The translations under genes and the position numbers were made by a program. 25,000 bases of DNA from Tubiluchus corallicola (taxonomy: Eukaryota > Priapulida > Priapulimorpha > Priapulimorphida > Tubiluchidae), in contig JAQGDQ010000328.1 of assembly GCA_030141605.1 (NCBI GenBank), positions 113,908 to 138,907 on the forward strand, in the 5' to 3' direction. This document shows positions 881 through 22,202 of the stretch, in pieces (the first letter of the stretch is position 1; the number at the start of each line of letters is the position of its first letter). The notes beneath the pieces are model-generated. The model was not told where the DNA came from and did not search any database. It was given only the letters and a program-made list of their open reading frames with translations.

Positions 881-1000
881 CTTCCATACAGAACTCTCCA
901 TAATAATAATCGAAGCAATCACAGGTAAAAGCTAAACAGTCTTCGCTGTCAGGTACGCACACAGAATTTGCCGAACACGGATTTGATGCAGGTTCGCAAA
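881..1000 (-). CDS. Exon: EGF-like domain, module copy 2
   Basis: 120 nt, 40 codons, phase 1 at both ends; acceptor ttttcag, donor gtgaga (standard GT). The peptide is almost the same as copy 1 (CEPASNPC to GEFC), again with a seventh cysteine in EDC. I count six nucleotide differences from 15295-15414. Three are silent, and the others change one residue at each end. Confidence 0.92.
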
Positions 1001-1817
1001 CTGAAAAAAATTGATGTTTTTTAAAAATGTTAAATGGCACCAAAAACAGACATTTCCAATTCAATTTATGTCTATTTTTGAAATAAAAACGAACGAAGTT
1101 TAATGCGGGGCTCCTTTCTTGAAACGACAAGGCTTAAGTACACATTCGATAAGTGAGACGTTAACAGCTATTAAGCATTGAGAACCTCCTCAAGGTGGTC
1201 AGTAATCAGATCTGCCGAAACCAACTAAAATGAACCGCCAAGTTATTATCGGCTCAACTGCACAAAGTCAACTTCTGTGCCAATAGACCAGAGAGGTCTA
1301 TTTGTCAAGCGATTCAGTCAAGTGAAGGATGGTGATGACCAGTCAGCTTGGATTCGGCTAGGAAACACAATTAACCTGCACACTAGCAGAGGTAAGACAT
1401 TTCAAGTTTTGATGGTAGTAATAATTATTACTATTGCATTATTATTAATGTTAGTAACGTCATCGCTGCTGTTGTCATCATCGTTTTCAGCATGGCATCG
1501 GCTTTCCTACTGGGCGAACTTCTCCAGCGCCTGTTTTCTATTTTCCTCCTCTTCCTCGTCTTCTCTCATTGCTTTTCCTGTTCTTCTCCAAGAAGCCTTA
1601 AAGTTTCACGTCTGTGTTGCCATTTATAGGTCTAATCAAACAGCTTTAAAATAATTTCATGACAATTTTAGATATCTTTGTTAAGCGTCTTTGAATATTG
1701 TCAATAGTACTGTCTATAGATTTAGACGCCATACAAAATAAATAATATTTTATATAAAATACATCACTGGGCAAAACACCCACACTGTGAAAATGTTTGA
1801 TAATCACCGGTACTCAC
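1001..1817 (-). other. Intron, FN3d to EGF, copy 2
   Basis: 817 bp, phase 1, against 88 bp at the equivalent place in copy 1. It contains ATT- and TCA/TCC-rich low-complexity DNA at 1420-1570 and a 7-bp hairpin (atagacc/ggtctat) near 1282. Nothing recognisable as a gene. Confidence 0.8.
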
Positions 1818-2114
1818 CATTTTCTTCAGTTGTCGCATTCACTTCTTCAAACATATCCTCATTCTGTCCCACTTCATTAGCAAACCAAACAGTGAACAAA
1901 TACGTAGATGCACACGTCAACTCATCAATGACGACATCTGTCTCAGTTACGCTTCCCGCTTCCACTGTGCTGCCGTCTGGTCGTTCCAAAGTATAATTGT
2001 ATCCGACGAACTCGCCATTGCGTCGACAACATTCAGCAGGTAAATTCCAGGTGAAGGCGAGACTGTCTACTCTACTTTCTGTCACTTCGAGATTTTCGAC
2101 AACGATTTCGGGAA
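1818..2114 (-). CDS. Exon: FN3d domain, module copy 2
   Basis: 297 nt, 99 codons, phase 1 at both ends; acceptor cttttag, donor gtgagt. Peptide PEIVVENLEV, LAFTWNLP, CCRRNGEFVGYNY, ELTCASTYLFTVWFANEVG, EEVNATTEENG. By eye it has about 31 mismatches in 297 nt against copy 1, but only one in the last 107 nt of the exon (1818-1924). An inverted-repeat element begins only about 17 bp beyond the acceptor side of this exon. Confidence 0.93.
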
Positions 2115-2130
2115 CTAAAAGAAAACAATA

Positions 2131-2766
2131 AACGTGTGTTTGCACAGCGAAAATGTCCGAAAGTCAACATGTAAGCTTTTCTAGTCCACATATCAAAAAT
2201 CTCTATTCCATGAGGATCATTTTGATACCAACTTCAATGCCCTATGTTATTTCTAACCTGAGATAATCCACATTGAAGTTGAGGTGCAAGCTGTGCAGAG
2301 AAAAACATAACCTCGAGAAAATCGCTGTTACAGGCTGCCATTGTTTTTTGTCATACTTCTACAAAAACACTTAGCAACCGCACGAACAGGTGGTTGCTAT
2401 GGATTGTACAAGAGTGAATTGAAGTTACATTTATATCCTGTAGATGGCTCTTCCAAAATCACAAGCAAAATGACAGCTTCCTCGAGCTACTATCAGAGTT
2501 TGAAAATGCGAGTTTTTGACTAACACAATACAAGTTTTTGGCCAGAGAAGTGAGTAAGAAGTTATAAAATTAAGTTTTTAGTATTTTCTAAACAATTTCC
2601 TGACATTGTGGTGCAAGAACGTAAAAGTACAATATATTTAGAGCTTGTTTTTGTAAAAAAAAAAATTGATGTTTGAACCAATTTTTGATGCATGGTACTT
2701 TGAAGCATCATAACACAGTGTTAAATAAGCCGACTTGTGGACGGTTTTGGTTTGCAAGCACATAAA
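2131..2766. mobile_element. MITE-like element, copy A
   Basis: The ends form imperfect inverted repeats of about 25-30 bp (left gtgtgtttgcacagcg, right ending ggttttggtttgcaagcac). The interior from about 2165 to 2545 matches the reverse complement of 18020-18420, including gataatccacattgaagttg, cattgttttttgtcat and gtagatggctcttcc. Copy A has about 190 bp more than copy B between 2545 and 2735. It lies in the FN3c to FN3d intron of copy 2, its left end about 17 bp from exon FN3d. No transposase is present, and target duplications are not clear. Confidence 0.75.
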
Positions 2767-3582
2767 TAACAATAATGTTAACATTCTTTAAACATTTAAA
2801 CAATGTGGAAATGTCAGATTGGCAGTGAACATGTCATAGCTTGCGAAAACTCAAAGGAAAGAGTATGACTAATTCCAGCTGAATAGAATTGATGAATCTT
2901 TTTAAAATGAGAAGAAAAACTCAGCAGGAAAGACAGGTTGATCCTTTACTTTACAAAAAAATATTAAAGTCTCACTCGGTGAAAGCAATTAAATTCATTT
3001 CAAAACACATACTGAAAACAATAACAGATTCTCAAAGATTCGGTAATTTTTGTTTTTTATAAGTGCACTCATCTCTCGGTTTCCCGCACAAAAGCAGAGA
3101 GACATCGGTCTGAATTTGTCGATTGTCTGTATTTTCCTACACTAATCTAATATAGTTGGCGCCGTCTACAAAACTCACGGTAACATAGAATCAATTGCCT
3201 AATAGTCTCAAAAACATTTAGTACAGACTTATGCAAAAGTATATAAAAACTGCCAGCAATTGACTCAAATGACTCCTCAGAATTGACTCTAAACCACTTA
3301 CGTATGCTGATTAAACCACTAAACATGCTCACATACAAGCCACACACGTATCATTGTGCTCCCCCTGGATGTAAACAAAGTGACGACCCGCCATCTAGTG
3401 GTCAGCTTGCGAAATAACGGACTGTCTGTAGTATGCGGGACTTCCGACAGACCAGATTTTGTCCGAATTCTCCAAAATTTCTAAAAGCGACGCCCGGCAA
3501 ACCGACATACGAGTGTAATTGTAATAATAAACAATTTAATTCAAAAACACACAATTCCAATATCATAAATAAAGTATCTTAC
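2767..3582 (-). other. Intron part without recognised features (FN3c to FN3d, copy 2)
   Basis: The acceptor-distal 0.8 kb of the 1468-bp phase 1 intron, beyond MITE copy A. No coding similarity or clear repeat seen. Confidence 0.7.
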
Positions 3583-3906
3583 GTCCCGACAAAGTTGAAG
3601 TTTCCACGTGTTCCTTGCTGTAAATTCCCTCCCCTCCGTCAATCGTGGTCCCCCAAACAGCGATGTCAAACAAGCTGTCACCACATAGATTCTCCAGCAC
3701 CATTTCCGTAGTAATACCGTCATCTGTCACTCTTTCAATTATGCCCACTTCTGGACTGCCAGTGAGACAAGAGATGGACACTGGTCCTTCGTATGACACA
3801 GTGTAGGCCATCATGATGCCATTAGCTTCATCAGGTCGGTCCCAGGTCACGTTCATACTGGACGATGACAAACCTTTGGCCTTCAGGTTCTGGACTGGCC
3901 CGGGCG
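3583..3906 (-). CDS. Exon: FN3c domain, module copy 2
   Basis: 324 nt, 108 codons, phase 1 at both ends; acceptor tctgcag, donor gtaaga. FN3 domain APGPVQNLKAKGL, MNVTWDRPDEANG, AYTVSYEGP, LENLCGDSLFDIAVWG, YSKEHVETSTLSG. The stretch YEGPVSISCLTG is identical to copy 1, while the first strand differs more. A possible sequon NVT lies directly in strand B. Confidence 0.93.
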
Positions 3907-4194
3907 CTGCAGAAAATGATAAATTGTTATTATGAGAGCATTTCACAAATTTGCATCTTATTATGTATATATATTCATCTGCAAATTTTATTTACCCACG
4001 TATATTTTAAATTGTATGTATATATTGTATATAGTCTATATTATAATTTGCATGTAACAATTGCAATATACATTTTGTTTTAAATTTTTGGCAGTAGTTT
4101 TTAGTTTGCACGGGATGCATTTGCCTTTAACAGTTGTGTGAATTTTTATTCTCATGCTGAGATGTTCTTATAAACGTTTATGCTTACGAATATC

Positions 4195-4260
4195 GATTAT
4201 ATATATATATATATATGCAATATAATATATAATAATTATATATATATATTATAATTTGCG
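4195..4260. repeat. AT-dinucleotide run with hairpin potential
   Basis: A (TA)n stretch beside gcaatataatatataat and tatattataatttgc, which together form an imperfect inverted repeat. The segment tatattataatttgc followed by rtgtaaca also occurs near 4037-4059, so a short direct repeat flanks the region. Confidence 0.7.
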
Positions 4261-4289
4261 TGTAACACTGAGACTCTGAGAGTAAATGT

Positions 4290-4606
4290 GTGAACAGCTT
4301 GGCAACATCTCCCAGAACTTGTTGCAACATGTGAACGGCTTGGCAACTACTCTCACAACTTGTTGCAACATGTGAACGGCTTGGCAACTACTCTCACAAC
4401 TTGTTGCAACATGTGAACAGTTTGGCAACGTCTCCCACAACTTGTTGCAACATGTGAACAGTTTGGCAACATCTCCCACAACTTGTTGCAACATGTGAAC
4501 AGTTTGGCAACATCTCCCACAACTTGTTGCAACATGTGAACAGTTTGGCAACATCTCCCACAACTTGTTGCAACGTGTGAACAGTTTGGCAAATTCCCAC
4601 AGAGAG
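4290..4606. repeat. 41-bp satellite, 7 full units plus one partial
   Basis: The unit runs from gtgaacagtttggcaac to cttgttgcaacat and recurs at 4290, 4331, 4372, 4413, 4454, 4495, 4536 and 4577, an exact 41-bp register. It includes the palindrome gttgcaac. The last unit decays after 4590 into a flank that repeats the same words (agttgcacaacaagttgcg). It lies in the FN3b to FN3c intron of copy 2. Confidence 0.96.
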
Positions 4607-4650
4607 AAGTTGCACAACAAGTTGCGAGAGAAGTCGATATGTCTGAATGC

Positions 4651-4677
4651 ACCATTAGCCACGTTCAGACGGCTAAT
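4651..4677. repeat. Short perfect hairpin
   Basis: The 8-bp arms cattagcc and ggctaatg are separated by ten bases. The hairpin lies just past the end of the 41-bp array. It may be part of a mobile element end, but nothing in the sequence proves that. Confidence 0.5.
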
Positions 4678-4784
4678 GATTAATTAAATCCACGATTACT
4701 AGTTAGATTTTGACACTAATCTAGCCAGATACTAAAAATCTGATCAAAAACTAGACTTGACAGTTTATCATTATATTGTATTGT

Positions 4785-4930
4785 ATTATTGTATTGTATT
4801 GTGTTGTGCTGTGCTGTGCTGTGCTGTGCTGTGCTGTACTGTGCTGTACTGTACTGTACTACACTACACTACACTACACTACACTACACTACACTACACT
4901 ACACTACACTACACTACACTATACTATATT
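4785..4930. repeat. Compound pentamer microsatellite
   Basis: Successive pentamer blocks: tattg/tgttg, then (tgtgc)n, a few (tgtac), then (tacac)n, ending in tatat variants. Left and right blocks are partly reverse-complementary (tgtgc against gtgta), so the run could fold back on itself. Found in the FN3b to FN3c intron of copy 2. Confidence 0.95.
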
Positions 4931-5192
4931 ATATTATTATATTTATATTATAAGAATATTAAAACCACCAAAGAATGTGGTCTGTTGGAACTAAAACAGC
5001 CAATCCAATGAACTGCAGTTCTCTCAAGCCAAAATTTCTAACCAAAATTCACAGCAATAGTAAACGTCATTTTTTTAGAAGTATGAGATGAAAAATTAAA
5101 AATAAATTTTACAATGAACATTGATTATTTACATAAACTGGATTCTCAGGAACATTTTTGAACCAATAAATCATCGCAAAAGGCAAACATAC

Positions 5193-5433
5193 CAGCGGGT
5201 GGAGTCCACTGCGTCCGATACTCGCTCCATTCACTCCACGCGTCCTCCTCGGGCGTGTGGTCATTTTGAAATCTGACGCTGACCTCGTAGTTTGCGAACG
5301 GAGAGAGGCCAGTCAACACGTAAACATCGGTTACATTTGTTTGTACAACCTCAAATCTTGAGTCGCCCACAATTCTATAGTGAATCTCATATTTGGTCAC
5401 AATGAAGCAATTTCGGATTTCGGCCGTTGGCTC
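5193..5433 (-). CDS. Exon: remainder of FN3b with WSEWS motif, module copy 2
   Basis: 241 nt, phase 0 acceptor (tcctag), phase 1 donor (gtatgt). Peptide EPTAEIRNC, TKYEIHYRIVG, LTGLSPFANYEVSVRF, then EEDAWSEWSEYRTQ. Same length and layout as 19406-19646, and the WSEWS box is preserved despite substitutions around it. NVT supplies a glycosylation sequon, as in copy 1. Confidence 0.92.
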
Positions 5434-6601
5434 CTAGGAGAGTAAAGGTCAATGCACTATCTTGGACGTGTACGAAAAATTGTGTAAGAAATCAAAAATG
5501 CAATTTAAAAACAGAAGAACGTGGATAAAGCAGGTCTGTAATCCATCAGTAGGACTTGAACAATACTACTGAGTAACTAAAAACTGCTGCATTGTGAAAC
5601 AAATATTGAAAACAATGAGAAACAATGAGAGAGAACAATGAGCTTGAGTTTATTTTTATGAATATTACAAGCTGTAAATCCTTCCTGTGACGTTCACGAA
5701 TTTACACCATACCCGACATACATAATTACCTTCCCAAATTTGCTTATTACAATCAGAATACAATTATAATTCTTTTTTTTCAATTCAATTTCAATTTATT
5801 CATCTCTTTAGAACACTACAGTAGAACATTATTAATAAGAGAATCAATAATAAGTTTTGAAGAATGGTTAAAACAGATAGATATAGAATCAGAGAAAGGA
5901 TAGTATAAAACCTATAAAGTAAAATACTCTACTATCCTTTACTGAACATAGAAAATCATTATTAGACACTGGTGGGCATGAAAATTAATGTTAATTAATG
6001 TTGTCAGTTTAATTTTTTGGAAACATTATTAATTTTTAGAATTATGGCATTTAATATATAATTAAGTAATGCAAAAAAGAAAACACATGCATGTACTATT
6101 AATTAGCATGCACAGAATACAGTCAATCTTGCATAAACTAAAATTAGCAAATTAATTTTAAGTTTAATTTATTTAATAATAAATAATAAGCGCATTTCCC
6201 GAATTATAACAGATACGATTGAGCCAATTCTACGTGTGTAATCCAGAAATGTAAACATCGGGCACCACTTAATAGACTCACTTTAAGATAAAAGTGTTTT
6301 GACCCAATTAACAGACTGAATCTATTAGCCGATGGATGTAGTATTACTAGCGTAGAAGCACGAGTCATCACTCTTTAGCTTAGAATGCCCTGCAAAGGCT
6401 TTAATTATTCATTCTAATCATTAATTAATTGTTAATAACCAATTATTCTAATCTTTCATTTTGAGATGCATTCGTAATTCCGGTGCATAAACTGGTGGCA
6501 TCAATTAACCAAGTTTTCAGCTAAGAGCATTTGGTGCACCATAAAACACTATTGAATCTTAATAAATCTGTAGACCCTTATATTGTATCCCAATATCTGG
6601 C
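5434..6601 (-). other. Intron part (inside FN3b, copy 2), AT-rich
   Basis: Part of the 4171-bp phase 0 intron. Apart from the 11-bp inverted repeat at 5896-5941 and a ttcaattcaatttcaattt run near 5778 that could be an old repeat end, I see nothing in it. Confidence 0.65.
5896..5941. repeat. 11-bp inverted repeat
   Basis: The arms aaaggatagta and tactatccttt are perfectly complementary, with a 24-base loop. It is intronic, and no element around it is recognised. Confidence 0.55.
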
Positions 6602-7548
6602 TATCATTAATCATCCACTTCATGAGTATCATTGATCATCCACTTCATGAGTATCATTGATCATCCACTTAATGAGTATCATTGTTCATCCACTTCGTGA
6701 GCATCATTGATCATCCACTTCATGAGTATCATTGATCATCTACTTCATGAGTATCATTGATCATCCACTTCATGAGTATCATTAATCATCCACTTCATGA
6801 GTATCATTGATCATCCACTTCATGAGTATCATTGATCATCCACTTCATGAGAATCATTGATCATCCACTTCATGAGTATCATTGATCATCCACTTCATGA
6901 GTATCATTGTTCATCCACTTCGTGAGTATCATTGATCATCCACTTCATGAGTATCATTGATCATCCACTTCGTGAGTATCATTGATAATCCACTTCATGA
7001 GTATCATTGATCATCCACTTCCAGAGTATCATTGATCATTCACTTCATGAGTATCACTTACCATCCACTTCATGAGTATCATTGATCATCCACTTCATGA
7101 GTATCATTGATCATCCACTTCATGACTTCATGAGTATCGTTGATCATCCACTTCATGAGTATCATTGATCATCCTTTTCATGAGTATCATTGATCATCCA
7201 CTTCATGAGTATCATTGATCATCCACTTCATGACTTCATGAGTATCGTTGATCATCCACTTCATGAGTATCATTGATCATCCTTTTCATGAGTATCATTG
7301 ATCATCTACTTCATGAGTATCATTGATCATCCACTTCATGAGTATCATTGATCATCTACTTCATGAGTATCATTGATCATCCACTTCATGAGTATCACTG
7401 ATCATCCACTTCATGAGTATCATTGATCATCCACTTCATGACTTCATGAGTATCGTTGATCATCCACTTCATGAGTATCATTGATCATCCTTTTCATAAG
7501 TATCATTGATCATCTACTTCATGAGTATCATTAATGATCCACTTCATT
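6602..7548. repeat. 25-bp satellite, about 37 units
   Basis: Tandem array of a 25-bp unit whose core is tgatcatccacttcatgag. Three units carry an extra 8 bp made by doubling acttcatg (near 7121, 7229 and 7438). Each is followed by the same downstream variants (tatcgttg, then catccttttcat), showing block duplication within the array. It lies in the 4.2-kb intron inside FN3b of copy 2. The unit contains the palindrome TGATCA. Confidence 0.97.
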
Positions 7549-8525
7549 GTCTCATCTATCATATCCCTATATCATCCTCCCGTAACTAATCCTCGCCATT
7601 TTTTCTTCCTTACCCCTTTTACTTCCTGTTTTACCACCAATAACATGAAGTTATATCGTATTTCTTAATGATTTTTAATACTGTGACTGTCTTCACGTGA
7701 AAGGCTTTTATACAGTTTTTCTTCTTATAAACCTGTTAACCAATCACCTAGTACAGTTATAAGATTTCACCTGTTCACGTATGTTTTGTTTCAATTCTCC
7801 GTGTACTAATAAATACAGTTTAAACCAAAGGCTTTAAATGAATTTTGCATACGAATCAATGTTTAAATTAATATTACGAATTGATGTCCAAATTCCTACA
7901 TGCAGTTATTTAAGAATACAAATTTGTATTCTAAGTGAAACATTATAAAGTGAATTAATAAAATATCACACAAATCTTATTATTACCACTAAAAATTACA
8001 AAAAATTGCACAATGTTTGCTGCTTCATTTCTCTACAAAGAAGTTGATTTATGAAATTCTCACACTGATTAAAGCATTGAAAGTAATAAAAACTCTTTCG
8101 TCACGCCTAAATGTTTTATTTTGGGCAGTCCAAAAAAATTATTGAGTCAATTATATGGAGTTACTGGAGTCAATTACAGACGTTTTTATGTACATTTGAA
8201 TAAGATCGGCCGTACCAGATGTTTTTGAATCAATTAGGTGTCTGATTCTATTGACAGCGAGTCTAATAAATGGTGCCTATTGTACTCAAAATCAGAAAAA
8301 TCAATAAAAATAGCGAAACAAACACACTCAAACAGAGATCGATGCTACTCAAATTTAGCTACATACAAATGTCGCATTATACAGCACGTCCACTAAATCA
8401 CTTCACTATTTAAAGCATGTAAACAAAATCACTGTAATGTTTTAAGCATTTACTGTTATAATCGTATAAAGGATAACTCATTCAAAGCATTTGCAACATA
8501 CCAAACACCTATCCAGATTTCACAA
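7549..8525 (-). other. Intron part between 25-bp satellite and LINE fragment
   Basis: About 1 kb of AT-rich DNA with no coding similarity or tandem repeat noticed. Confidence 0.65.
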
Positions 8526-9020
8526 GCTCTACTGTACTTGCTAATCAACTTTTACAAGTTTATGGTAAGGCCTGTCTTAGACTATCGTGACGTGATTTGG
8601 AACCCATCTAAACATGACATGATTCGTGAGCTTGAAAGCAACCAGCGTCGAGCAACTAGGATGATACCAGGTATAGCAGAAAGACCAGATCCTGATAGAT
8701 TAAGGCACTTAGGACTTACGACACTTAAATACAGAAGTTACAGGCTGGATATGATCCAGACATTTAGGATCCTTAAGGGTATTGACCGGATAGACAGTCA
8801 CAAAATATTTGAATTCCAGATACGCCATAGGACAAGAGAACATTCACTGAAAATCAACAAGAAATCTGTTTCAAAGTGGTGAAGACAAAATTTCTTTGCA
8901 GCTTGTGGTGTAAATGTCTGGAACAAACTTCCTGTATGTAGTGAAGGCTTCTTCAGTTTCTCAAGTTAAATCTAGATTAGATCGATTCTGGGCTAATCAA
9001 CCGAAGAAATTCATTGTTCC
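8526..9020 (+). mobile_element. Decayed LINE fragment (end of reverse transcriptase ORF)
   Basis: Plus-strand translation gives FYKFMVRPVLDY, DVIWNPS, RELESNQRRATRMIPG, RLRHLGLTTLKYR and RILKGIDRID. These are the conserved words found after the catalytic core in CR1/jockey-like non-LTR retrotransposons. The frame is broken by TGA at 8880-8882, but coding resemblance continues in the same frame (NFFAACGVNVWNKLP, then further stops and DRFWANQPKKF). The 5' part of the element is absent, as usual for 5'-truncated LINEs. It runs opposite to the host gene, within the FN3b intron of copy 2. The 3' limit is uncertain and may extend to about 9180. Confidence 0.88.
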
Positions 9021-9604: not shown

Positions 9605-9705
9605 CTGCAAAGTGACAAGTATTGCAGCCGTGTTGTTGGCAGCATTTGGTTCGTTTTCAAGATATGAATCACCGAGTTCTGGTGCATCCAGACTGGACAG
9701 TGGTG
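9605..9705 (-). CDS. Exon: N-terminal third of FN3b, module copy 2
   Basis: 101 nt, phase 1 acceptor (tttctag), phase 0 donor (gtaagt). Peptide PPLSSLDAPELGDSY to AAILVTLQ, 34 residues with the split codon. It matches 20551-20651 in length and most residues. NNTA provides a sequon absent from copy 1, where the residue before is aspartate. The exon is stranded between the 65-bp satellite about 120 bp to its right and a 4.2-kb intron on its left. Confidence 0.88.
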
Positions 9706-9828
9706 CTAGAAAAACAAAATTCGAGCAAATTAAAATTTACTTCCCTCTTCTGTTTATCTTAGCAATTCACAAGGCACACCTTGGTTCCTCATTTTTTATT
9801 CCTTATTTGTTTGTTTTCAAGAATTAAT

Positions 9829-12800
9829 GCACTGGAATGTTGGACTGTATGCCTGGCCAGGTCTCCACAGACTGACAATTGCAAATGCACAATGCACTGG
9901 GATGTTGGACTGCGTGCCTGGCCAGGTCTCATCAGACTGACAATTGCAAATGCACAATGCACTGGGATGTTGGACTGTGTGTCTGGCCAGGTCTCATCAG
10001 ACTGACAATTGCAAATGCACAATGCACTGAGATGTTGGACTGCGTGTCTGGCCAGGTCTCTCCAGCCTGACAATTGCAATTGCACAATGCACTGGGATGT
10101 TGGACTGTGTGCCTGCCCAGGTATCCTCAGCCTGACAATTGCAAATGCACAATGCACTGGGATGTTGTACTGCATGCCTGGCCAGGTCTCCTCAGACTGA
10201 CAATTGCAAATGCACAATGCACTGGGATGTTGGACTGTGTGCCTGGCCTGGTTTCCTCAGCCTGACAATTGCAAATGCACAATGCACTGGGATGTTGTAC
10301 TGCATGCCTGGCCAGGTCTCCTCAGACTGACAATTGCAAATGCACAATGCACTGGGATGTTGGACTGTGTGCCTGGCCTGGTTTCCTCAGCTTGACAATT
10401 GCAAATGCACAATGCACTGGGATGTTGGACTGCATGCCCAGCCAGGTCTCCTCAGACTGACAATTGCAAATGCACAATGCACTGGGATGTTGGACTGTGT
10501 GCCTGGCCAGGTCTCCTCAGCCTGACAATTGCAAATGCACAATGCACTGGGATGTTGTACTGCATGCCTGGCCAGGCCTCCTCAGCCTGACAATTGCAAA
10601 TGCACAATGCACTGGGATGTTGGACTGTGTGCCTGGCCAGGTCTCATCAGACTGACAATTGCAAATGAACAATGCACTGGGATGTTGGACTGTGTGCCTG
10701 GCCAGGTCTCCTCAGCCTGACAATTGCAAATGCACAATGCACTGGGATGTTGTACTGCATGCCTGGCCAGGCCTCCTCAGCCTGACAATTGCAAATGCAC
10801 AATGCACTGGGATGTTGTACTGCATGCCTGGCCAGGTCTCCTCAGCCTGACAATTGCAAATGCACAATGCACTGGGATGTTGGACTGTATGCCTGGCCAG
10901 GTCTCCACAGACTGACAATTGCAAATGTACAATGCACTGGGATGTTGGACTGCGTGCCTGGCCAGGTCTCATCAGACTGACAATTGCAAATGCACAATGC
11001 ACGAGGATGCTGGCCTGCGTGCCTGGCCAGGTCTCCACAGATTGACAATTGCAAATGCACAATGCACTGGGATGTTGGACTGTGTGTCTGGCCAGGTCTC
11101 ATCAGACTGACAATTGCAAATGCACAATGCACTGAGATGTTGGACTGCGTGTCTGGCCAGGTCTCTCCAGCCTGACAATTGCAATTGCACAATGCACTGG
11201 GATGTTGGACTGTGTGCCTGGCCAGGTCTCCTCAGCCTGACAATTGCAAATGCACAATGCACTGGGATGTTGGACTGTGTGCCTGGTCAGGTCTCCCCAG
11301 CCTGACAATTGCAAATGAACAATGCACTGGAATATTGGACTGCGTGCCTGGCAAGGTCTCATCAGACTGACAATTGCAAATGCACAATGCACTGGGATGT
11401 TGGACTGTGTGCCTGGTCAGGTCTCCCCAGACTGACAATTGCAAATGAACAATGCACTGGGATGTTGGACTGTGTGCCTGGCCAGGTCTCATCAGCCTGA
11501 CAATTGCAAATGCACAATGCACTGGGATGTTGGACTGCATGCCTGGCCAGGTCTCCTCAGACTGACAATTGCAAATGCACAATGCACTGGGATGTTGGAC
11601 TGTGTGCCTGGCCAGGTCTCCTCAGCCTGACAATTGCAAATGCACAATGCACTGGGATGTTGTACTGCATGCCTGGCCAGGTCTCCTCAGCCTGACAATT
11701 GCAAATGCACAATGCACTGGGATGTTGTACTGCATGCCTGGCCAGGTCTCCTCAGCCTGACAATTGCAAATGCACAATGCACTGGGATGTTGGACTGTGT
11801 GCCTGGCCAGGTCTCTCCAGCCTGACAATTGCAAATGCACAATGCACTGGGATGTTGGACTGCGTGCCTGGCCAGGTCTCCTCAGCCTGACAATTGCAAA
11901 TGCACAATGCACTGGGATGTTGGACTGCATGCCTGGCCAGGTCTCCCCAGCCTGACAATTGCAAATGAACAATGCACTGGAATATTGGACTGCGTGCCTG
12001 GCAAGGTCTCATCAGACTGACAATTGCAAATGCACAATGCACTGGGATGTTGGACTGTGTGCCTGGTCAGGTCTCCCCAGACTGACAATTGCAAATGAAC
12101 AATGCACTGGGATGTTGGACTGCATGCCTGGCCAGGTCTCATCAGCCTGACAATTGCAAATGCACAATGCACTGGGATGTTGGACTGCATGCCTGGCCAG
12201 GTCTCCTCAGACTGACAATTGCAAATGCACAATGCACTGGGATGTTGGACTGCATGCCTGGCCAGGTCTCCTCAGACTGACAATTGCAAATGCACAATGC
12301 ACTGGGATGTTGGACTGTGTGCCTGGCCAGGTCTCCTCAGCCTGACAATTGCAAATGCACAACGCACTGGGATGTTGGACTGTGTGCCTGGCCAGGTCTC
12401 TCCAGCCTGACAATTGCAAATGCACAATGCACTGGGATGTTGGACTGCATGCCTGGCCAGGTCTCCTCAGCCTGACAATTGCAAATGCACAATGCACTGG
12501 GATGTTGTACTGCATGCCTGGCCAGGTATCCTCAGCCTGACAATTGCAAATGCACAATGCACTGGGATGTTGGACTGTGTGCCTGACCAGGTCTCTCCAG
12601 CCTGACAATTGCAAATGCACAATGCACTGGGATGTTGTACTGCATGCCTGGCCAGGTCTCCTCAGCCTGACAATTGCAAATGCACAATGCACTGGGATGT
12701 TGGACTGTGTGCCTGTCCAGGTCTCCTCAGACTGACAATTGCAAATGCACAATGCACTGGGATGCTGGACTGTGTGCCTGTCCAGGTCTCCCCAGCCTGA

Positions 12801-13858
12801 CAATTGCAAATGCACAATGCACTGGGATGTTGTACAGCATGCCTGGCCAGATCTATTCAGCCTGACAATTGCAAATGGACAATGCACTGGGATGTTGTAC
12901 TGCATGCCTGGCCAGATCTATTCAGCCTGACAATTGCAAATGCACAATGCACTGGGATGTTGGACTGCATGCCTGGCCAGGTCTCCTCAGCCTGACAATT
13001 GCAAATGCACAATGCACTGGGATGTTGTACTGCATGCCTGGCCAGGTCTCCTCAGCCTGACAATTGCAAATGCACAATGCACTGGGATGTTGGACTGTGT
13101 GCCTGGCCAGGTCTCTCCAGCCTGACAATTGCAAATGCACAATGCACTGGGATATTGGACTGCATGCCTGGCCAGGTCTCCTCAGCCTGACAATTGCAAA
13201 TGCACAATGCACTGGGATGTTGGACTGCATGCCTGGCCAGGTCTCCCCAGCCTGACAATTGCAAATGAACAATGCACTGGGATGTTGTACTGCATGCCTG
13301 GCCAGGTCTCCTCAGACTGACAATTGCAAATGCACAATGCACTGGGATGTTGTACTGCATGCCTGGCCAGGTCTCCCCAGCCTGACAATTGCAAATGCAC
13401 AATGCACTGGAATGTTGGACTGTGTGCCTGTCCAGGTCTCCTCAGACTGACAATTGCAAATGCACAATGCACTGGGATGCTGGACTGTGTGCCTGTCCAG
13501 GTCTCCCCAGCCTGACAATTGCAAATGCACAATGCACTGGGATGTTGTACAGCATGCCTGGCCAGATCTATTCAGCCTGACAATTGCAAATGGACAATGC
13601 ACTGGGATGTTGTACTGCATGCCTGGCCAGATCTATTCAGCCTGACAATTGCAAATGCACAATGCACTGGGATGTTGGACTGCATGCCTGGCCAGGTCTC
13701 CTCAGCCTGACAATTGCAAATGCACAATGCACTGGGATGTTGGACTGCATGCCTGGCCAGGTCTCCTCAGACTGACAATTGCAAATGAACAATGCACTGG
13801 GATGTTGGACTGTGTGCCTGGCCAGGTCTCCCCAGCCTGACAATTCCAAATGCGCATG
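9829..13858. repeat. 65-bp satellite, 62 units
   Basis: Direct tandem repeat of a 65-bp unit starting with gcactgggatgttgg. Unit starts fall exactly every 65 bases from 9829 to 13794, so 62 units fill 4030 bp with no net insertion or deletion. The unit contains the 10-bp palindrome cctggccagg and caattg. Substitutions cluster in a few columns (the bases after gactg, the ctcag/atcag/cccag/tccag block, and the base after gcaaatg). The array sits in the intron between FN3a and the first FN3b exon of copy 2. Stop-poor frames on both strands produce many 63-residue and longer open frames that I do not regard as genes. Confidence 0.98.
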
Positions 13859-14231
13859 GTAATCTGTCAACTGCTGAACCGTAAAATGAGAACTTTTGCT
13901 GATGAAAGAAGTTTTAGTCTATAATTTTAGGCTCAAATAAAATTGGAACTAATCGGATAAAAAAACTTGTTCGAAACTCAGTCCTACCTTTAACAAGCAA
14001 AGCATATCAGATACAAGTGGGCTACACGTGCATTATTGATCCTGATAACAATTTCCGTGCAATCCAATAGTGTGCAAAAGCTTTGTACACAGTTTAGCAG
14101 CTTACTTATTAAGCAACAGTTCAATGTAATTTATTTCCTATAAATTCATGCACATGGTAAGATAAGAAAAAAAGTTATTACATATCAACATATTTAGTAG
14201 CAGAATTATATATGGCAAATGTATAACATAC

Positions 14232-14567
14232 GTCCACATTTAGTGGTAAACTCAGCAGACGGCGATGCTGCTCCCTCTCCCGTTTCATTCGTTGACGTTT
14301 CCGACAATATAATGACTCTCACGCTGTACGTCACCTCAAGAGCAAGTCCTGTTATATCACAGTTATAAGCTTCCTGATCTGTAGCCGTTACTTCACAAGC
14401 CGTAACCTCTTCAGTGACTCCGACCTCGTTGTAACGCACGATGTACGTCAGCGGAGTTCCTTCCCCATTATCAGTGTTGGGGTCCCATTTATTCCAACTC
14501 ACAGTTGCAATATAAGCATTTATATCTTCCTCGGCTAAAGTGGGAGCAGCGCTAAAGCTTGGGTATT
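14232..14567 (-). CDS. Exon: FN3a domain, module copy 2
   Basis: 336 nt, 112 codons, phase 1 at both ends; acceptor ttttcag, donor gtatgt. It encodes EYPSFSAAPTLAEED, ATVSWNKWDPN, LTYIVRYNEVG, LTGLA-like ITGLALEVTYSVRV and EFTTKCG. Same FN3 fold and length as 21765-22100. NET in STNETGEG is a possible glycosylation site. Its first 20 nt are identical to the first 20 nt of the third copy at bases 1-20, whereas copy 1 differs at several of these positions. Confidence 0.93.
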
Positions 14568-15294: not shown

Positions 15295-15414
15295 CTTCTG
15301 TACAAAACTCTCCATAATAATAATCGAAGCAATCACAGGTAAAAGCTAAACAGTCTTCGCTGTCAGGTACGCACACAGAATTTGCGGAACAGGGATTTGA
15401 TGCAGGTTCGCAAG
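15295..15414 (-). CDS. Exon: EGF-like domain, module copy 1, with GC donor
   Basis: 120 nt, 40 codons, phase 1 to phase 1. The acceptor is tttcag. The donor is AG|GCAAGT, a GC-AG intron that fits the strong consensus expected at such sites; the equivalent site in copy 2 is GT. The peptide carries CEPASNPC, SVC, EDC, TCDC and YYYGEFC. An EGF domain needs six cysteines, and this one has seven, the extra being in EDC between the third and fourth canonical cysteines. It is about 95% identical in nucleotides to 881-1000. Confidence 0.9.
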
Positions 15415-15502
15415 CTGAAAATAAAATGCATTTTCGTAAGTAGATTACATCACCACAATGTAATATTTACATTTTCAAATGTTTTAAATGTCATAGACTC
15501 AC

Positions 15503-15799
15503 CATTTTCTTCAGTTGTCGCATTCACTTCTTCAAACATATCCTCATTTTGTCCCACTTCATTAGCAAACCAAACAGTGAACAAATACGTAGATGCACAC
15601 GTCAACTCATCTATGACGACATCGCTCTCGGTTACACTTCCCTCTTCCACTGTGCTGCCATCTGGTCGTTCCAAAACATAATTGTACCCGACGAACTCGC
15701 CATTGCGTCGACAACAATCAGCAGGTAAAGCCCAGGTAAAAGCGAGGCTGTCTACACGAGTTTCGCTTACATCCAGATCCTCAACAATTATTTCTGGAA
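15503..15799 (-). CDS. Exon: FN3d domain, module copy 1
   Basis: 297 nt, 99 codons, phase 1 to phase 1; acceptor atgttag, donor gtgagt. FN3 domain with PEIIVEDLDV, LAFTWALP (strand-B tryptophan), GYNYVLERPDGS (strand C), ELTCASTYLFTVWFANEVG (tyrosine corner and strand F), then EEVNATTEENG. An adjacent cysteine pair (DCCRR) and a third cysteine (ELTC) are shared with copy 2. NAT is a possible glycosylation site. The following intron is only 88 bp, against 817 bp in copy 2. Confidence 0.93.
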
Positions 15800-16413: not shown

Positions 16414-16737
16414 ATCCGGACAAAGTTTGACTCTCAACACGTTCTTTACTATAAATTGCTTCCCCTCCATCCACCGTTGTTCCCCAAACATCGACGTCAA
16501 ACAAGCTGTCGCCACACAGATTCTCCAGCACCATTTCCGTAGTAACACCGTCATCCGTTACTCTTTCAATTATGTCCACTTCTGGAGTGCCAGTGAGACA
16601 AGAGATGGACACTGGTCCTTCATACGACACGGTGTAATGCTGAATGACACCGTTTGGTTCAAGAGGTTCTTCCCAGGTAACACGGATGCTAGATGATGAT
16701 AAAGCTTCAGCCTGTAGACCCTCAACTGGTCCGGGAG
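16414..16737 (-). CDS. Exon: FN3c domain, module copy 1
   Basis: 324 nt, 108 codons, phase 1 to phase 1; acceptor ttccag, donor gtaagt. Complete FN3 domain: APGPVEGLQAEAL, then IRVTWEEP with the strand-B tryptophan, HYTVSYEGP for strand C, LENLCGDSLFDVDVWG in place of the tyrosine corner, and YSKERVESQTLSG at the end. The APGPV start is typical of FN3 repeats in tandem arrays. Two cysteines (SISC and ENLC) are conserved in copy 2. Confidence 0.93.
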
Positions 16738-16749
16738 CTGGAAAACAAA

Positions 16750-16890
16750 AAATAAATGGCACATCAGACGCATTTGTCCCGGGAGGTCGTGGGTTCAACT
16801 CTTGACCGGGTCATAATAAAGAATTGGTACTGCTGGTTCTTCAACCAAGCAAGCACGTTTATCGAAGCAACATGCAAATAATAATAATCA
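16750..16890 (+). mobile_element. Possible tRNA-derived SINE fragment
   Basis: GGTCGTGGGTTCAACTC at 16787-16803 contains GTTCAACTC, which fits the RNA polymerase III B box (GWTCRANNC). A body of about 70 bp follows, then a short aataataataat tail at 16877-16889. No clear A box or intact cloverleaf is visible, so this is not a tRNA gene. The identification is tentative. Confidence 0.3.
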
Positions 16891-17018
16891 GGACCACCGT
16901 GGAAATAAGTATTGAGCTATTTAAAGTGTTATCCTTGCACTTATGTCCTAAACGAAATCATTATTATTATTATTTGTCAAACGTAAAACCTATAATACTA
17001 TGATTAAGGTGTCTTGCA

Positions 17019-17535
17019 TGTAACTTCCAGTGTCCAGCATGTGGCTTCCAGTGTCCAGCGTGTAGCTTCCAGTGTCCAGCATGTGGCTTCCAGTGTCCAG
17101 CATGTAGCTTCCAGTGTCCAGCATGTGGCTTCCAGTGTCCAGCGTGTGGCTTCCAGTGTCCAGCATGTGGCTTCCAGTGTCCAGCGTGTGGCTTCCAGTG
17201 TCCAGCGTGTGGCTTCCAGTGTCCAGCGTGTGGCTTCCAGTGTCCAGCGTGTGGCTTCCAGTGTCCAGCGTGTGGCTTCCAGTGTCCAGCGTGTGGCTTC
17301 CAGTGTCCAGCGTGTGGCTTCCAGTGTCCAGCGTGTGGCTTCCAGTGTCCAGCGTGTGGCTTCCAGTGTCCAGCGTGTGGCTTCCAGTGTCCAGCGTGTG
17401 GCTTCCAGTGTCCAGCGTGTGGCTTCCAGTGTCCAGCGTGTGGCTTCCAGTGTCCAGCGTGTGGCTTCCAGTGTCCAGCGTGTGGCTTCCAGTGTCCAGC
17501 ATGTGGCTTCCAGTGTCCAGCGAGTGGCTTCCAGC
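17019..17535. repeat. 21-bp satellite, about 24.6 units
   Basis: The unit is tgtggcttccagtgtccag followed by cg or ca, in exact 21-bp register from 17019 to 17522, then a partial unit. Variants (cg/ca, ggc/agc) concentrate in the first seven units, while the middle units are identical, suggesting recent expansion there. Because 21 is a multiple of 3 and the unit lacks stops in most frames, five frames stay open for about 500 bp. A single copy of ggcttccagtgtc at 17749-17761 may be a seed or an escaped unit. Located in the FN3b to FN3c intron of copy 1. Confidence 0.97.
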
Positions 17536-17974
17536 ATTTTGCTTGAAGGCTTCCAGGTCTAGCGTCTAACATTCACAGGGCAATAAGTCAACAACAAACC
17601 ACCTGGCATCCATGTTCTTCGCAGAAAACAAAATGGACGAGAGTATCAAATTCATTTTTGCAATACTTTCATTTTTACGTTATTCATTTGCACAAAAGTT
17701 CACAGACTTAGTCATCAATGGTTGGTTAATGAACAGACGCTAGTACTTGGCTTCCAGTGTCTGCTGCAAAATTCTTTTGTTTCATTGCTTGTGGTCAATA
17801 TGTTCTTTCTCGCTTGTAAACGCTGGAAACAGGCTGGATGAATCACAGGCTTTAAATCTCGATAATTTCAATTTCCCTTCAAATCATCGATGTGTCCGGC
17901 AAAATTACACATAGAGTTCACACCAAGATAAAGTTTATTAAAACCAAATACGTAAAATGAAGCATACATGTTTC

Positions 17975-18446
17975 ACATTTGTGAGCTTACATACCAAAAC
18001 CGTCCAAAACTAGTAATGCAATTGTAAAAAACTCCTATTTTCAAACTCCGATAGTAGCTCCTGGCAGCTGTTTTTTTTGCTTCAGGTTTTTTCTGCTGCC
18101 GACCTCAGACCTTCGTCAGGAAGAGCCATCTACTGGATTTAAACACAACTTCAGTGTGCTCTTGTGAAGTCTGTAGCAACCAACATTTGCGCGGATGCTA
18201 AGTGTTTTGTAGAAACATGACAAAAAACAATGGCTAACTTTAACAGTGATTTTTGCAAGATTATGTTTTTCAGTGTGCAGCCTGCACTTCAACTTCAATG
18301 TGGATTATCTCAGCTTAGAAATAACATAGAGCAATGAGCTTAGTATCAAACTGATCACCACGAAATGGAGTCACGGGGTATGTGACTAACTAGAAAACCT
18401 TAGTTGCCAACTGATGGACGATTTTGCTATGCAAGCACACATTTAT
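17975..18446. mobile_element. MITE-like element, copy B (inverted relative to copy A)
   Basis: Left end gtgagcttacataccaaaac and right end attttgctatgcaagcacac are imperfect reverse complements, forming terminal inverted repeats of about 30 bp. The interior matches copy A at 2131-2766 in opposite orientation. Both are non-coding; short open frames sharing PVDGSS merely reflect the shared DNA. It lies in the FN3b to FN3c intron of copy 1. Confidence 0.75.
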
Positions 18447-19405
18447 CATATAATTTTAAAAGATTTTATAGTTTTTAAAGCTAGTATGTCTTCTGATTTT
18501 AATAATTCACTTTACATCAGTTTTTTATACTGAAACAGGCACGAGTTTTGCGTGAATTTATTCACTATGTGTGTCAAATATGCACTCAGTCAACTGAAAA
18601 ATTTCGTATTCTGGCAGGATACATAAAAGTAAAGTAAACTCGCACTTATTATAAATGGTACTAGAACCAGAAAAGATTAAAATCTCGCAAAACTATCTTA
18701 TCGTTTCGTCTTCTTCAAATGTGACTTTCATTTTGAAATGGTACTTTAGATGTAAAATCATTTTCGTGTCCACAACCATGTAGACGAGTGCCACCAACTG
18801 TTTACTTACTGTTCACTAGGACACTGGGTTTCATTCCACAACTGTGCCATGCAAAAGACAGGAAGGGATACCTACTGTTTCAGTGACATGCATGCAAAAC
18901 TATTGCAGAAAACTGTAATGAAAATAGCCTGTCAGCACTGCTGCCAGTCTTGCAAGCCTGTTCTTCGCACAAACTAACATCAACGCATGTAAAAGCATTG
19001 ACAGTAGCATTTTACACAGCATAGACTGCAATGAAGAAGTCACACTCTTTGCAGCTTGAACCTGCAGCTTGAAGGCCAGACAGTCTTAGCAATTGTACAA
19101 ACTAGTCCAGTGGGTTACTCGCTTACTGGCACTTTTCTATCCGACTGTTTAGATATGTGACTTAGAACACCATTTATTTATTATTGCTATCGAATCCGTT
19201 TTGTATCATAAAAATTTAGAAAGCGATAATGCTGTTGTGATGTAACAATATAAAAAATGGCTAAAAGCTTATTACTCGGAAAAAACCATAATGAGAACAG
19301 CTGCCTGGCAAAATAGATGGCTTTATAGAGTTACTTCATAAGCAAGTAACCCAAAAATATTTGGCTCAGCTGAAACTTTCCACCTTCCAGTAAAGTTTGA
19401 CATAC
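18447..19405 (-). other. Intron part (FN3b to FN3c, copy 1)
   Basis: About 960 bp between MITE copy B and the FN3b exon. No coding similarity, tandem array or clear inverted repeat seen. Confidence 0.65.
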
Positions 19406-19646
19406 CAGCAGATGGAGTTGACTGTGTCTGATAGTCACTCCACTCACTCCACGCCTCCTCCTCGGGTATGTGGTCATTCTGAAATCTCACGCTGACCTCG
19501 TAGTTTGTGTATGGTGAGAGTCCGGTCAGTACATAGATGTCCGTTACATTTGCCTGTACAATGTCAAACCGGGAATCGCCCACAGCTCTATAGCGGATTT
19601 CATACTGAGTTACAAGACGACAATTCCGGACTTCAGCTGTTGGTTC
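19406..19646 (-). CDS. Exon: remainder of FN3b with WSEWS motif, module copy 1
   Basis: 241 nt, phase 0 acceptor (aaacag), phase 1 donor (gtatgt). The peptide begins EPTAEVRNC, has strand C as TQYEIRYRAVG, the tyrosine corner as LTGLSPYTNYEVSVRF, then EEEAWSEWSDYQTQ. The WSEWS sequence sits at the F-G position, where class I cytokine receptors carry their WSXWS box. Relation to cytokine receptors is inference; some other FN3 proteins carry similar sequences. One N-glycosylation sequon is visible (ANVTD). Confidence 0.92.
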
Positions 19647-19718
19647 CTGTTTAAGTTGCAAGAGAAAACAAGCAAAATTAAAACTTGCAACTTACACGTG
19701 TACATCCTCTGTAGCTTA

Positions 19719-20323
19719 CCGTATATACTTATGTACAAGTCGAGTATTTGGGAGGCGATTTTAAGGTGAAATTTTTGGGGTCGACTTATACTTACGATAT
19801 GTTTTTGGGAGATGTCGCTAAAGAGTCATCTACAATTTGAATATGTAAAGAAATAATCCTTCATTACACGCTGGACTGAATGAACACTCATACTGTAATA
19901 CTTCACATCAGAGAATATTCACATTTTGACATTACTTCACAAAATTAACAGATATTATTGTTATTTAATGTATGTGAAATAAAGTTAAAATTTATATATT
20001 ACCGGTAAATAAACAAGCGATGAAGCATTCGATCAGAACATGGAAATCGCCAATGTTGTGCAGGTGCTGCCGCCTGTCGGCTTCCACGGTAAGTTTTACA
20101 CTGGCATTGCATATGCGTGTTTTATTGGCAAAATATCGATTACCAGCATACACGTATATTACTTTGATTTATTACTCGGCCATTGTTGAAATCATTTACT
20201 CTGGAAGATCTTAATATTTTATGGTCGAATTTTTCACAGATAATATATAAAATGATACAATTCTTGGTCTTAAAATGCACATCAACTTGTACATAAGGTC
20301 GACTTGTATACACGTATATACGG
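19719..20323. mobile_element. 605-bp inverted-repeat element flanked by TA
   Basis: It starts CCGTATATAC and ends GTATATACGG, with arms that continue through tgtacaagtcga and tcgacttgtat, so the terminal inverted repeat is roughly 25-28 bp. TA lies immediately outside both ends (19717-19718 and 20324-20325), as expected for Tc1/mariner-type insertion. The interior has no convincing transposase. It sits in the FN3b intron of copy 1, about 70 bp from exon 19406-19646. Confidence 0.8.
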
Positions 20324-20550
20324 TAATTTTCTGGTTAATAATATTTTTTCATGCAAATAAGCTATTTTGATGTTTCTTGCAAAAAGTGTTAATTTAGCTA
20401 GGAGTTGCACATTGCAACCAGAACTTAGTTTTGCAAAGAAAAGAAATGTTTCTGATAAATAAAAGGTCTTGTAGATTTGTTGAAAAGTACGACAGCTTAC
20501 GTCAATCGATGTACTCGCATCTATAAAAGAAAACTAGCATTATCTAGTAC

Positions 20551-20651
20551 CTGTAATGTGACAGGTATTGCAGCCGTGTTGTCTGCAGCATTTTCTTCCA
20601 ACTCAAGATACGAATCGCCGAGTTCCGGTGCATCCAGACTGGACAGTGGTG
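20551..20651 (-). CDS. Exon: N-terminal third of FN3b, module copy 1
   Basis: 101 nt, phase 1 acceptor (ttgtag), phase 0 donor (gtacta after TTACAG). With the split codon it gives 34 residues, starting TPLSSLDAPELGDSY and ending AAIPVTLQ. This is the A-B strand region of an FN3 domain. The strand-B position usually occupied by tryptophan appears to be leucine (VTLQ), as also in copy 2. The domain continues in exon 19406-19646. This is the only phase 0 junction in the repeated module. Confidence 0.88.
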
Positions 20652-21764
20652 CTACAAAGAAAAACTTATTCAGAAATTTATCAAAGGTTCACTGACCCTT
20701 AACTACATTGCTTTCAAATACATGTACGATAATAGTCTTATACTATGCAAACAGTTCTCTTTACAACACAAGTCCTGTAATCTGGTCTAACCATAAACCT
20801 TACAGAAACAGTTCTATCACAAAAACAAGAATAACAATTAATATAGCAGATAACTAAGGCTATGCTTAAGATCGGCATTTTTAAGTATTAACAAAAAAGT
20901 TCCACACAAACACAATTTCCAAACAAGAATTTTAACTATCTTTTATGAAATTTATTGCCTCAGTACAAACTTTCGTAGTACTCAGTCGCACACAAATTGA
21001 TGACACAAAATATGCAGTAAAAAATTCAGTCGAATCTCACTTAAATCCCCAATACCTTTATTTAGATAGACAAAAATAACTCCAATATTTTTTAGCAAAA
21101 CAAAAGTCCATATTTGCATAGACATGTATGCATTAATGCGCCTCGTTATAACGGAAAATTTGCTTAATGCCAACTTTTTCGCAGTCCCAAAGTAGGTGAT
21201 ACAAAGAGGTTAGAGCTGCAGCTTCAGCAACACTTAAATCAGTCAAACCTATTTCTGACGTTTGCATGAAAAACACCAGGGCTAAAAGGAAAAACCAAAA
21301 ATTGATGTTCCATATTCTTTCTTAGATTTTGCTGTGAGTTAGCCAACTTGTTATCTTGTTTCCACCATTTCTTCTTTTTCATTGACTTTGTTCACAAAAA
21401 GTTCCTTTAGCCAACGTCTACGAGTAACTAATACGTCTAAGACTGCAATGCACTGCTGATGAGGGGAACAGACAACTGGTTACGAAGTGCATTTATTAAT
21501 CAAAGTTAAATACAGCTGAAGTTGGTCAGTTAGCAGATGGGTGACTGCGTGGAAAACTGCCTTTGCGTGGTTCTACTAGGTCTGTACTCTAGTGAGGATG
21601 TAAACAACTGGCCAAGATATTTCCGCCATTTTGCAGACAGAGAAAAGACCTTCACCCGGTGTCTTTTCATACAAACACTCTCGGCTCCACTGTTGGCAAA
21701 ACCATGTATATAAAACAGATCATGCCAAAGAATGCTAGATCTCAGCTTTCAAAAAACAACTTAC
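20652..21764 (-). other. Intron, FN3a to FN3b, copy 1
   Basis: 1113 bp, phase 1. In copy 2 the equivalent intron is 4526 bp, mostly satellite. None of the 65-bp unit is present here. Nothing else recognised. Confidence 0.75.
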
Positions 21765-22100
21765 TTCCACATTTCGTAGTAAACTCCGCAGGTGGTGACG
21801 GGGCGCCCTCTCCGGTTTCACCTGTTATGATATCAGACACTATACTGACATACACACTGTACGTCACCTCAAGAGCAAGTCCTGTTAAATCGCACGTGTA
21901 CGTTTCCTGATCCGTCGCCGTTACTTCACAAGCCGTAACCTCTTCAGCAACTCCGACTTCATTGTAACGCACGATGTACGTCAGCGGAGTTCCTTCCCCA
22001 TTATCACTGTTGGGGTCCCATTCATTCCAACTCACAGTTGCAATATAGGCATTTATATCTTCGTCGGCCAAAGTTGGAGCAGCGCTAAAACTGGGAAACT
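21765..22100 (-). CDS. Exon: FN3a domain, module copy 1
   Basis: 336 nt, 112 codons, phase 1 at both ends; acceptor aatttcag, donor gtaagt. It encodes a complete fibronectin type III domain: start EFPSFSAAPTLADED, the strand-B tryptophan in IATVSWNEWDP, strand C in LTYIVRYNEVG, then the tyrosine-corner-like LTGLALEVTYSVYVSIV, and ending in EFTTKCG. It holds three cysteines (TAC, YTC, TKC). Compared with copy 2 (14232-14567), the length is identical. The central part, covering the acidic turn and strand C, is almost unchanged, and the C-terminal part is more different. A decayed partial duplicate of the exon start lies about 100 bp upstream in transcription direction (22203-22251). Confidence 0.93.
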
Positions 22101-22202
22101 CTGAAATTAAAATGTAAATTCTAATATAAACTTTAACTGGATATGCAAATGACTGGAGGGGGGTCAAATACGCAAACGACATACAAAATTTAGTTTTCAA
22201 AA

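Follow-up and report, generated by a model that had tools for sequence, protein, structure and literature searches.

Tandem FN3-EGF modules with a mosaic history in a putative receptor-type tyrosine phosphatase gene of Tubiluchus corallicola

Introduction

Receptor-type tyrosine phosphatases (RPTPs) of the R3 group (PTPRB, PTPRJ, PTPRQ and PTP10D of the fly) combine an FN3-rich ectodomain with a single protein tyrosine phosphatase (PTP) domain, as set out in the part of PMC5336234 that concerns them. Type IIa (LAR) receptors have several FN3 domains, tandem PTP domains (D1 and D2) and N-terminal immunoglobulin (Ig) domains. Duplication often takes in several domains at once, for example in nebulin (Expansion of Protein Domain Repeats, PMC1553488, in the passages on this point), and the Dscam exon arrays hold tandem exons that encode extracellular domains of a cell-surface receptor (PMC3236188, likewise in part). 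Here, 25,000 nucleotides of the priapulid Tubiluchus corallicola (contig JAQGDQ010000328.1, positions 113,908 to 138,907; the window below) were analysed together with flanking sequence of the contig. The window reads as the 5′ part of a single-pass RPTP gene. Judged from sequence, modules of four FN3 domains, most of them followed by an EGF-like exon, were probably duplicated in tandem in this gene and later re-mixed by intragenic recombination.

The locus resembles type IIa receptors in its tandem D1-D2, in its several FN3 domains and in a D1 whose best PDB matches are PTPRS and LAR. It differs in that the FN3 domains stand in EGF-spaced blocks of four, in a WSC domain, and in WPF and WPV (a by-eye reading) in place of WPD. 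No Ig match was found in the pieces scanned with Pfam, where the N-terminal exons gave WSC; further N-terminal exons may be unread. R3 receptors share the FN3-rich ectodomain with a PTP domain, but their ectodomain is FN3 only, whereas this locus has two PTP domains, a WSC domain and an EGF match. As in nebulin, a multi-exon, multi-domain block is repeated with the same exon pattern; unlike there, exchange inside exons is also seen, which the relevant passages of PMC1553488 leave untreated. In contrast to Dscam, as far as PMC3236188 describes it in the part used, exchange is strong here, and the units are whole modules that are not shown to be alternative. The combination of WSC, FN3, EGF-like and tandem PTP domains was not found in the open-licence literature searched, and nothing relevant was found there on WSC with PTP or FN3 or on exon phases. 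The parts and the kind of process are known; the arrangement is unusual. What had at first view looked like clean block copying would be a clear case of a multi-domain ectodomain evolving by exon and sub-exon exchange, with mappable switch points.

Results

Six exons in the order FN3a, FN3b (two exons, b1 and b2), FN3c, FN3d and EGF-like are present twice on the minus strand of the window, as module A (22100-15295) and module B (14567-881; Table 1). Lengths of 336, 101, 241, 324, 297 and 120 nt are common to both modules and sum to 1419 nt, or 473 codons, in each. Phases are also equal (1-1 for FN3a, FN3c, FN3d and EGF; 1-0 and 0-1 for the two FN3b exons). All 12 exons have an AG acceptor and 11 have a GT donor, the EGF exon of A having GC; both modules are stop-free once spliced. 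A first-pass annotation, made from the letters of the window, had called this an exact tandem duplication of a six-exon, 473-residue module. That description was accurate for exon lengths, order and phases and did not extend to the sequence. Base identity between A and B is 84.8, 86.1, 77.6, 79.0, 89.6 and 95.0% from FN3a to EGF, and the proteins agree at 394 of 472 residues (16.5% divergence). Synonymous divergence per site (dS, by NG86, which is rough for short exons and saturated for many distant pairs) is 0.53 for the whole module. The exon similarity is beyond chance (BLAST E 4.9e-33 to 3.5e-117). Corresponding introns are unequal in length, for example 88 and 817 nt between FN3d and EGF in the two copies, and gave no BLAST alignment; the sole intron matches between A and B by BLAST were a dispersed repeat in two non-corresponding introns. 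Because the introns cannot be aligned and bear different minisatellites, A and B are neither a recent nor an assembly duplicate. An exact or recent duplication, considered as a candidate, was ruled out by the exon divergence, the dS of about 0.5 and the introns.

The assembly (343.5 Mb, 2344 contigs) was searched, and eleven 10-kb stretches flanking the window on its contig (C1765) were examined. At the left edge of the window, 20 nt of an FN3a exon have the same letters as the exon start in B. A short run of similar intron lies beside this piece, and the bases beyond it are N in the assembly. The piece had been proposed as the start of a third copy, and this was borne out: FN3c, FN3d and EGF exons of that module, C, are readable further on. 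The flanks extend the series with order and strand unchanged through modules D and E, to a total of five FN3x4 modules in this assembly. The first-pass annotation had proposed a count of units past base 1 as a check, and with these further modules downstream it is clear that the module did multiply. All six exons of D were located, and FN3a, b1, b2, c and an FN3d split over two exons were located in E; tblastn gave no EGF match after E (E up to 1). Among the 25 module exons checked, to which the two FN3d exons of E are additional, an AG acceptor was present in 25, a GT donor in 24 and a stop in none. The other modules were placed by tblastn from A and B.

Relationships between the copies change from exon to exon. 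Counted over sites where the query matched one of the two other copies and not both or neither, and without the last 9-12 nt of FN3d, FN3c shows A siding with C at 60 sites and with B at 10. The balance was 13 to 52 in FN3d and 1 to 51 in the EGF exon. The contrast in pairing between FN3c and FN3d is strong (Fisher 3.8e-15) and is seen at third codon positions alone, with 33 A-C and 3 A-B sites in FN3c and 8 and 27 in FN3d. For FN3c, dS was 0.12 between A and C and 0.67 between A and B; for FN3d, it was 0.33 between A and B and 0.86 between A and C. Synonymous divergence between A and B was unequal between exons (chi2 p 3e-4, Met and Trp codons omitted). In bootstrap trees, FN3d separated C from A and B (98), and FN3b2 grouped B with D (100).

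Switches were also found inside exons of module D. In its FN3a, the informative sites are A-like before nt 204 (18 of 20) and B-like after it (27 of 29). In its FN3b2, all 20 sites as far as nt 74 are B-like, and of those beyond, 19 are A-like and 12 B-like. The max-chi2 value of each switch point was reached in 0 of 1000 permutations. The 262 nt of intron next to FN3b2 on its upstream side are identical between B and D in 252 of 263 alignment columns, and the 86 nt of intron upstream of FN3a are identical between A and D in 76 of 87. Elsewhere the flanks differ from the exons (z-scores from 60 mononucleotide shuffles): those of the A-C pair at FN3c are at shuffle level (z 0.2 and -0.1), and those of the A-B pair are weakly similar at FN3d (z -0.2 and 2.5) and EGF (z 2.8 and 3.6).

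Module D joins a young and an old half. Residue identity of D to A and B is 88-93% in FN3a, 91-94% in FN3b1 and 86-91% in FN3b2, and falls to 34-38% in FN3c and FN3d and 27% in EGF. In the compared exons (the table of exon identity and dS omits FN3d of E), the second half of D and module E are 27-58% identical to A, which again speaks against recency; the exception is FN3b2 of E at 73%, the best-kept exon of that module (68-73% over its comparisons). A young stretch thus runs in the identity table from FN3a of A to FN3b2 of D, and the array is old from FN3c of D onward. The duplicated unit may have had the register FN3c-FN3d-EGF-FN3a-FN3b rather than FN3a to EGF, since this would yield exactly the young/old edge in D. 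The intermediate divergence of FN3d and EGF of C is at odds with a single round of copying.

Relationships thus switch both between exons and inside them, and the copying of whole modules explains the array only in part. The first-pass annotation had seen a protein growing by duplication of whole modules; the multiplication stands, and simple copying of whole modules conflicts with the exon-by-exon relationships. The mosaic is best explained by repeated intragenic exchange, by gene conversion or unequal crossing-over, because tracts span an intron-exon border and fade inside an exon. Where similarity stops near exon edges, exchange limited to exon-sized islands of homology is the best explanation, to which selection on exons may add.

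A relic of an FN3a exon was found ahead of module A (Table 1). Its 50 nt align with the opening of FN3a of B, beginning at base 0; an AG is kept in front, and the remainder of the exon is missing. Its score of 33 was reached in 1 of 200, 0 of 30 and 0 of 300 shuffles in 2-mer blocks, the method used for all relic comparisons. The edge of the intron stretch common to A and D is 15 nt away. Matches to FN3a of A, D and E are weak only (equalled in 5, 30 and 20 of 300 shuffles). With FN3a of A as query, the best match lay elsewhere and was at shuffle level (53 of 200 as good). The stretch that holds the relic has one weak match in the sequence upstream of D (11 of 300 as good). No other exon relics were found in the introns, the FN3a relic being the one among 12 exon queries to beat all 30 shuffles. 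The relic suggests a deletion remnant and so the loss of at least one former module. Two points speak against this: the intron before the relic is unlike those before A, B and C (equalled in 173-255 of 300 shuffles), and duplication of a short fragment would leave the same trace.

The domains of the ectodomain were assigned as follows. Pfam gave WSC for two joined N-terminal exons upstream of module A and in phase with it (E 3.4e-10), and fn3 for four stretches of module A (E 2.1e-28, 98.8 bits against a cut-off of 25). FN3d of E scored 49 bits for fn3. Pfam scans of EGF-like exons took in A and C; the exon of A stayed under the cut-off (EGF_2, E 0.94), and that of C passed for EGF PF00008 (E 4.9e-5, score 24.0 against 21.5). 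The best matches of module A in the PDB are FN3 domains of PTPRF and PTPRD (6tpw, 6x3a). Weak cytokine-receptor-like Pfam matches of module A were all under their cut-offs (Interfer-bind, E 0.0024; CRLF2-like_D2, E 0.092). A WSEWS motif is kept in FN3b2 of all four readable modules (A, B, D, E), and the last cysteine of FN3a and the sole cysteine of FN3b are kept in 4 of 4 readable modules. The EGF exon has seven cysteines in A, B and C and six in D. FN3d has three in A, B and C, two in D and two in E, where no EGF follows. Modules A, B and C have FN3d Cys67 together with EGF Cys21; D has neither. Because these extra cysteines are gained or lost jointly, among the four modules compared, FN3d and EGF are possibly tied by a disulfide.

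Downstream of the modules, an exon after E has a best 21-residue hydropathy of 2.95, AG/GT borders and a fitting phase, and is likely a transmembrane (TM) segment between ectodomain and phosphatase. Tandem D1-D2 PTP domains follow, at about -39800 to -55200 in window numbering. Pfam Y_phosphatase matched D1 with E 1.5e-76 and D2, in part, with E 9.5e-29. Against the PDB, the best match of D1 was PTPRS, with LAR close behind. The P-loops read HCCPGVGR and HCLYGAER across splice joins set by eye, with Cys and Arg kept in both. WPD appears to be replaced by WPF in D1, as aligned to PTPRS, and by WPV in a by-eye reading of D2. With these replacements, the cytoplasmic part may act by docking more than by catalysis, D1 catalysis being putatively reduced. 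The resulting layout is WSC-[FN3x4-EGF]x4-FN3x4-TM-D1-D2, with 20 FN3 domains (18 readable) and four EGF-like exons. The gene reads as an RPTP because of the WSC domain upstream, the FN3 modules, the likely TM segment and the two PTP domains. Two predictions are made: an FN3d/EGF-like disulfide and a catalytically weak first PTP domain.

For FN3b2, all 11 candidates in the assembly were scored and four close matches were obtained. All four lie at this locus, so no second haplotype of FN3b2 was found. The first-pass annotation had suggested that module number might vary between individuals or alleles. A distant relative at G000:C2203:89500-89706 (35% identity, E 2.2e-5) is possibly part of a paralogous receptor. 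Among 7992 scored protein candidates, two matched with E <= 0.001. Both are FN3 proteins from metagenomes (31 and 33% identity) and are uninformative on kinship. No relative was found in the viral contigs searched.

Discussion

The following course of events would account for the array. Exon lengths and phases point to an origin of the modules in tandem copying of blocks with a phase-1 intron at either end. They would then have been re-mixed repeatedly, most likely by gene conversion with some unequal crossing-over; the pattern is observed and the mechanism is our interpretation. Exchange tracts would measure roughly 100-350 nt and could begin in an intron and end within an exon. At least one module would have been lost, leaving the truncated FN3a ahead of A. 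The most likely role is that of a long adhesion or recognition arm, which would hold the WSC head far off the membrane and be linked to a PTP-type cytoplasmic part.

Had the modules been copied whole and in series, with no later exchange, the common exon order, lengths and phases of A and B and the same order in C, D and E would be expected, and they are found. We consider this account improbable, since the pairings clash (A-C in FN3c; A-B in FN3d and EGF; B-D at the start of FN3b2), the affinity switches inside FN3a of D, and intron flanks pair otherwise than the exons beside them. Uneven purifying selection, acting also on synonymous sites through splicing signals, could in principle leave patchy similarity, and the FN3c similarity of A and C and the FN3d/EGF similarity of A and B do mostly end at exon edges. 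Selection would have to keep the same exon in one pair and not in another, as the dS values of FN3c and FN3d show, and the B-D tract crosses 262 nt of intron into the exon and fades there; such an origin has a slightly smaller chance still. Least credible is an assembly artefact from misassembled haplotypes or collapsed copies, a possibility that the first-pass annotation had itself raised for A and B. Stretches of N lie beside the window and interrupt the reading of the array, but A and B differ by 16.5% in protein, their introns are independent and cannot be aligned, their minisatellites differ, and FN3b2 has four close copies, all here, plus one 35% match elsewhere. An artefact is unlikely for A and B on the same grounds.

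A different proposal, compatible with duplication followed by exchange, is that the modules are alternative cassettes that are skipped or swapped to give several arm lengths. Modules A, B and D begin and end in phase 1, and the EGF exon of A has a GC donor. GC donors are a class that is often weaker. The exons read have ordinary splice sites and simple inclusion suffices, so use as cassettes seems unlikely, if less so than the three rivals above. A more far-reaching idea is that the modules are in continuing reshuffle, that the module number and mosaic of the arm vary between individuals, that the arm serves as a self/non-self or partner-recognition surface, and that exchange is partly templated by spliced RNA. 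The last part is suggested by near-identity of A and B across the FN3d-EGF junction (4 differences in about 218 coding nt), while the ends of the intron between are at most weakly similar (z 2.5 and 2.8). The idea as a whole is speculative, and we give it a very small chance.

Several points weigh against an RPTP gene with duplicated and re-mixed modules, which we nevertheless prefer. Splice signals and homology are the basis of the gene model. Module C is unreadable in FN3a beyond the first 20 nt and in its two FN3b exons. The EGF-like exon of D has a weak tblastn match (E 0.15-0.17), to which place, phase and six cysteines are added. The TM exon was chosen by eye among 10 hydrophobic frames, several of which are simple repeats, and the PTP exon joins were also set by eye. 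In the FN3c and FN3a trees the young copies are poorly separated (49 and 53), and the pattern would suit conversion as well as crossing-over.

Other features of the region

Features of the window are listed in Table 1; its GC content is 39%, and the genes found point to an animal origin. The first WSC exon could extend to 24810, provided that translation begins at the ATG found there and that a signal peptide forms the N terminus.

Table 1. Positions of exons and of the exon relic in the window, with the basis of each assignment.
Feature	Position	Strand	Basis
WSC domain, exon 1	24621..24761	-	Pfam WSC on two joined exons; borders by eye
WSC domain, exon 2, phase 1-1, in-frame join to FN3a of A	23185..23379	-	Pfam; border 23185 by eye
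Relic of FN3a exon start (first 50 nt)	22202..22251	-	Local alignment to FN3a of B
Module A FN3a exon	21765..22100	-	Splice sites, phase, A/B comparison
Module A FN3b exon 1	20551..20651	-	Splice sites, phase, A/B comparison
Module A FN3b exon 2, WSEWS motif	19406..19646	-	Splice sites, phase, A/B comparison
Module A FN3c exon	16414..16737	-	Splice sites, phase, A/B comparison
Module A FN3d exon	15503..15799	-	Splice sites, phase, A/B comparison
Module A EGF-like exon, GC donor	15295..15414	-	Splice sites, phase, A/B comparison
Module B FN3a exon	14232..14567	-	Splice sites, phase, A/B comparison
Module B FN3b exon 1	9605..9705	-	Splice sites, phase, A/B comparison
Module B FN3b exon 2, WSEWS motif	5193..5433	-	Splice sites, phase, A/B comparison
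Module B FN3c exon	3583..3906	-	Splice sites, phase, A/B comparison
Module B FN3d exon	1818..2114	-	Splice sites, phase, A/B comparison
Module B EGF-like exon	881..1000	-	Splice sites, phase, A/B comparison
Module C FN3a, first 20 nt	1..20	-	Identical to module B; later C exons found outside the window

Beyond the phosphatase domains, at about -58900 to -86000 on C1765, LIM-domain-like frames and an HRDLNSHN kinase motif lie on the same strand and probably belong to a separate neighbouring gene of LIM-kinase type. An fn3 family search of the genome, in which 150 of 569 candidates were scored, so that the result is no full count, placed more than 40 of the 150 matches on one strand over about 160 kb at G000:C1924:131877-292084, mostly in short open frames. 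This cluster may represent another very long FN3 gene or a gene cluster.

The introns of the window hold several repeats. A 65-bp minisatellite (9826-13853, 62 copies, 92% matches) lies within the FN3a/FN3b1 intron of module B, and further arrays have units of 25 bp (6602-7547), 21 bp (17024-17534), 41 bp (4289-4601) and AATCT (23728-23931). Decayed sequence at 8511-8980 (+) and 22771-22998 (-) reads, by eye, like the C-terminal end of a non-LTR (long terminal repeat) retrotransposon reverse transcriptase. A dispersed repeat occupies 2116-2778 and 18006-18458 in opposite orientations, and another piece of it lies at -9709 to -9377 in the intron before module D. A second repeat is shared by -8651/-8015 and -16637/-15994 (91.6% identity, 646 columns), with fragments at 3198-3424.

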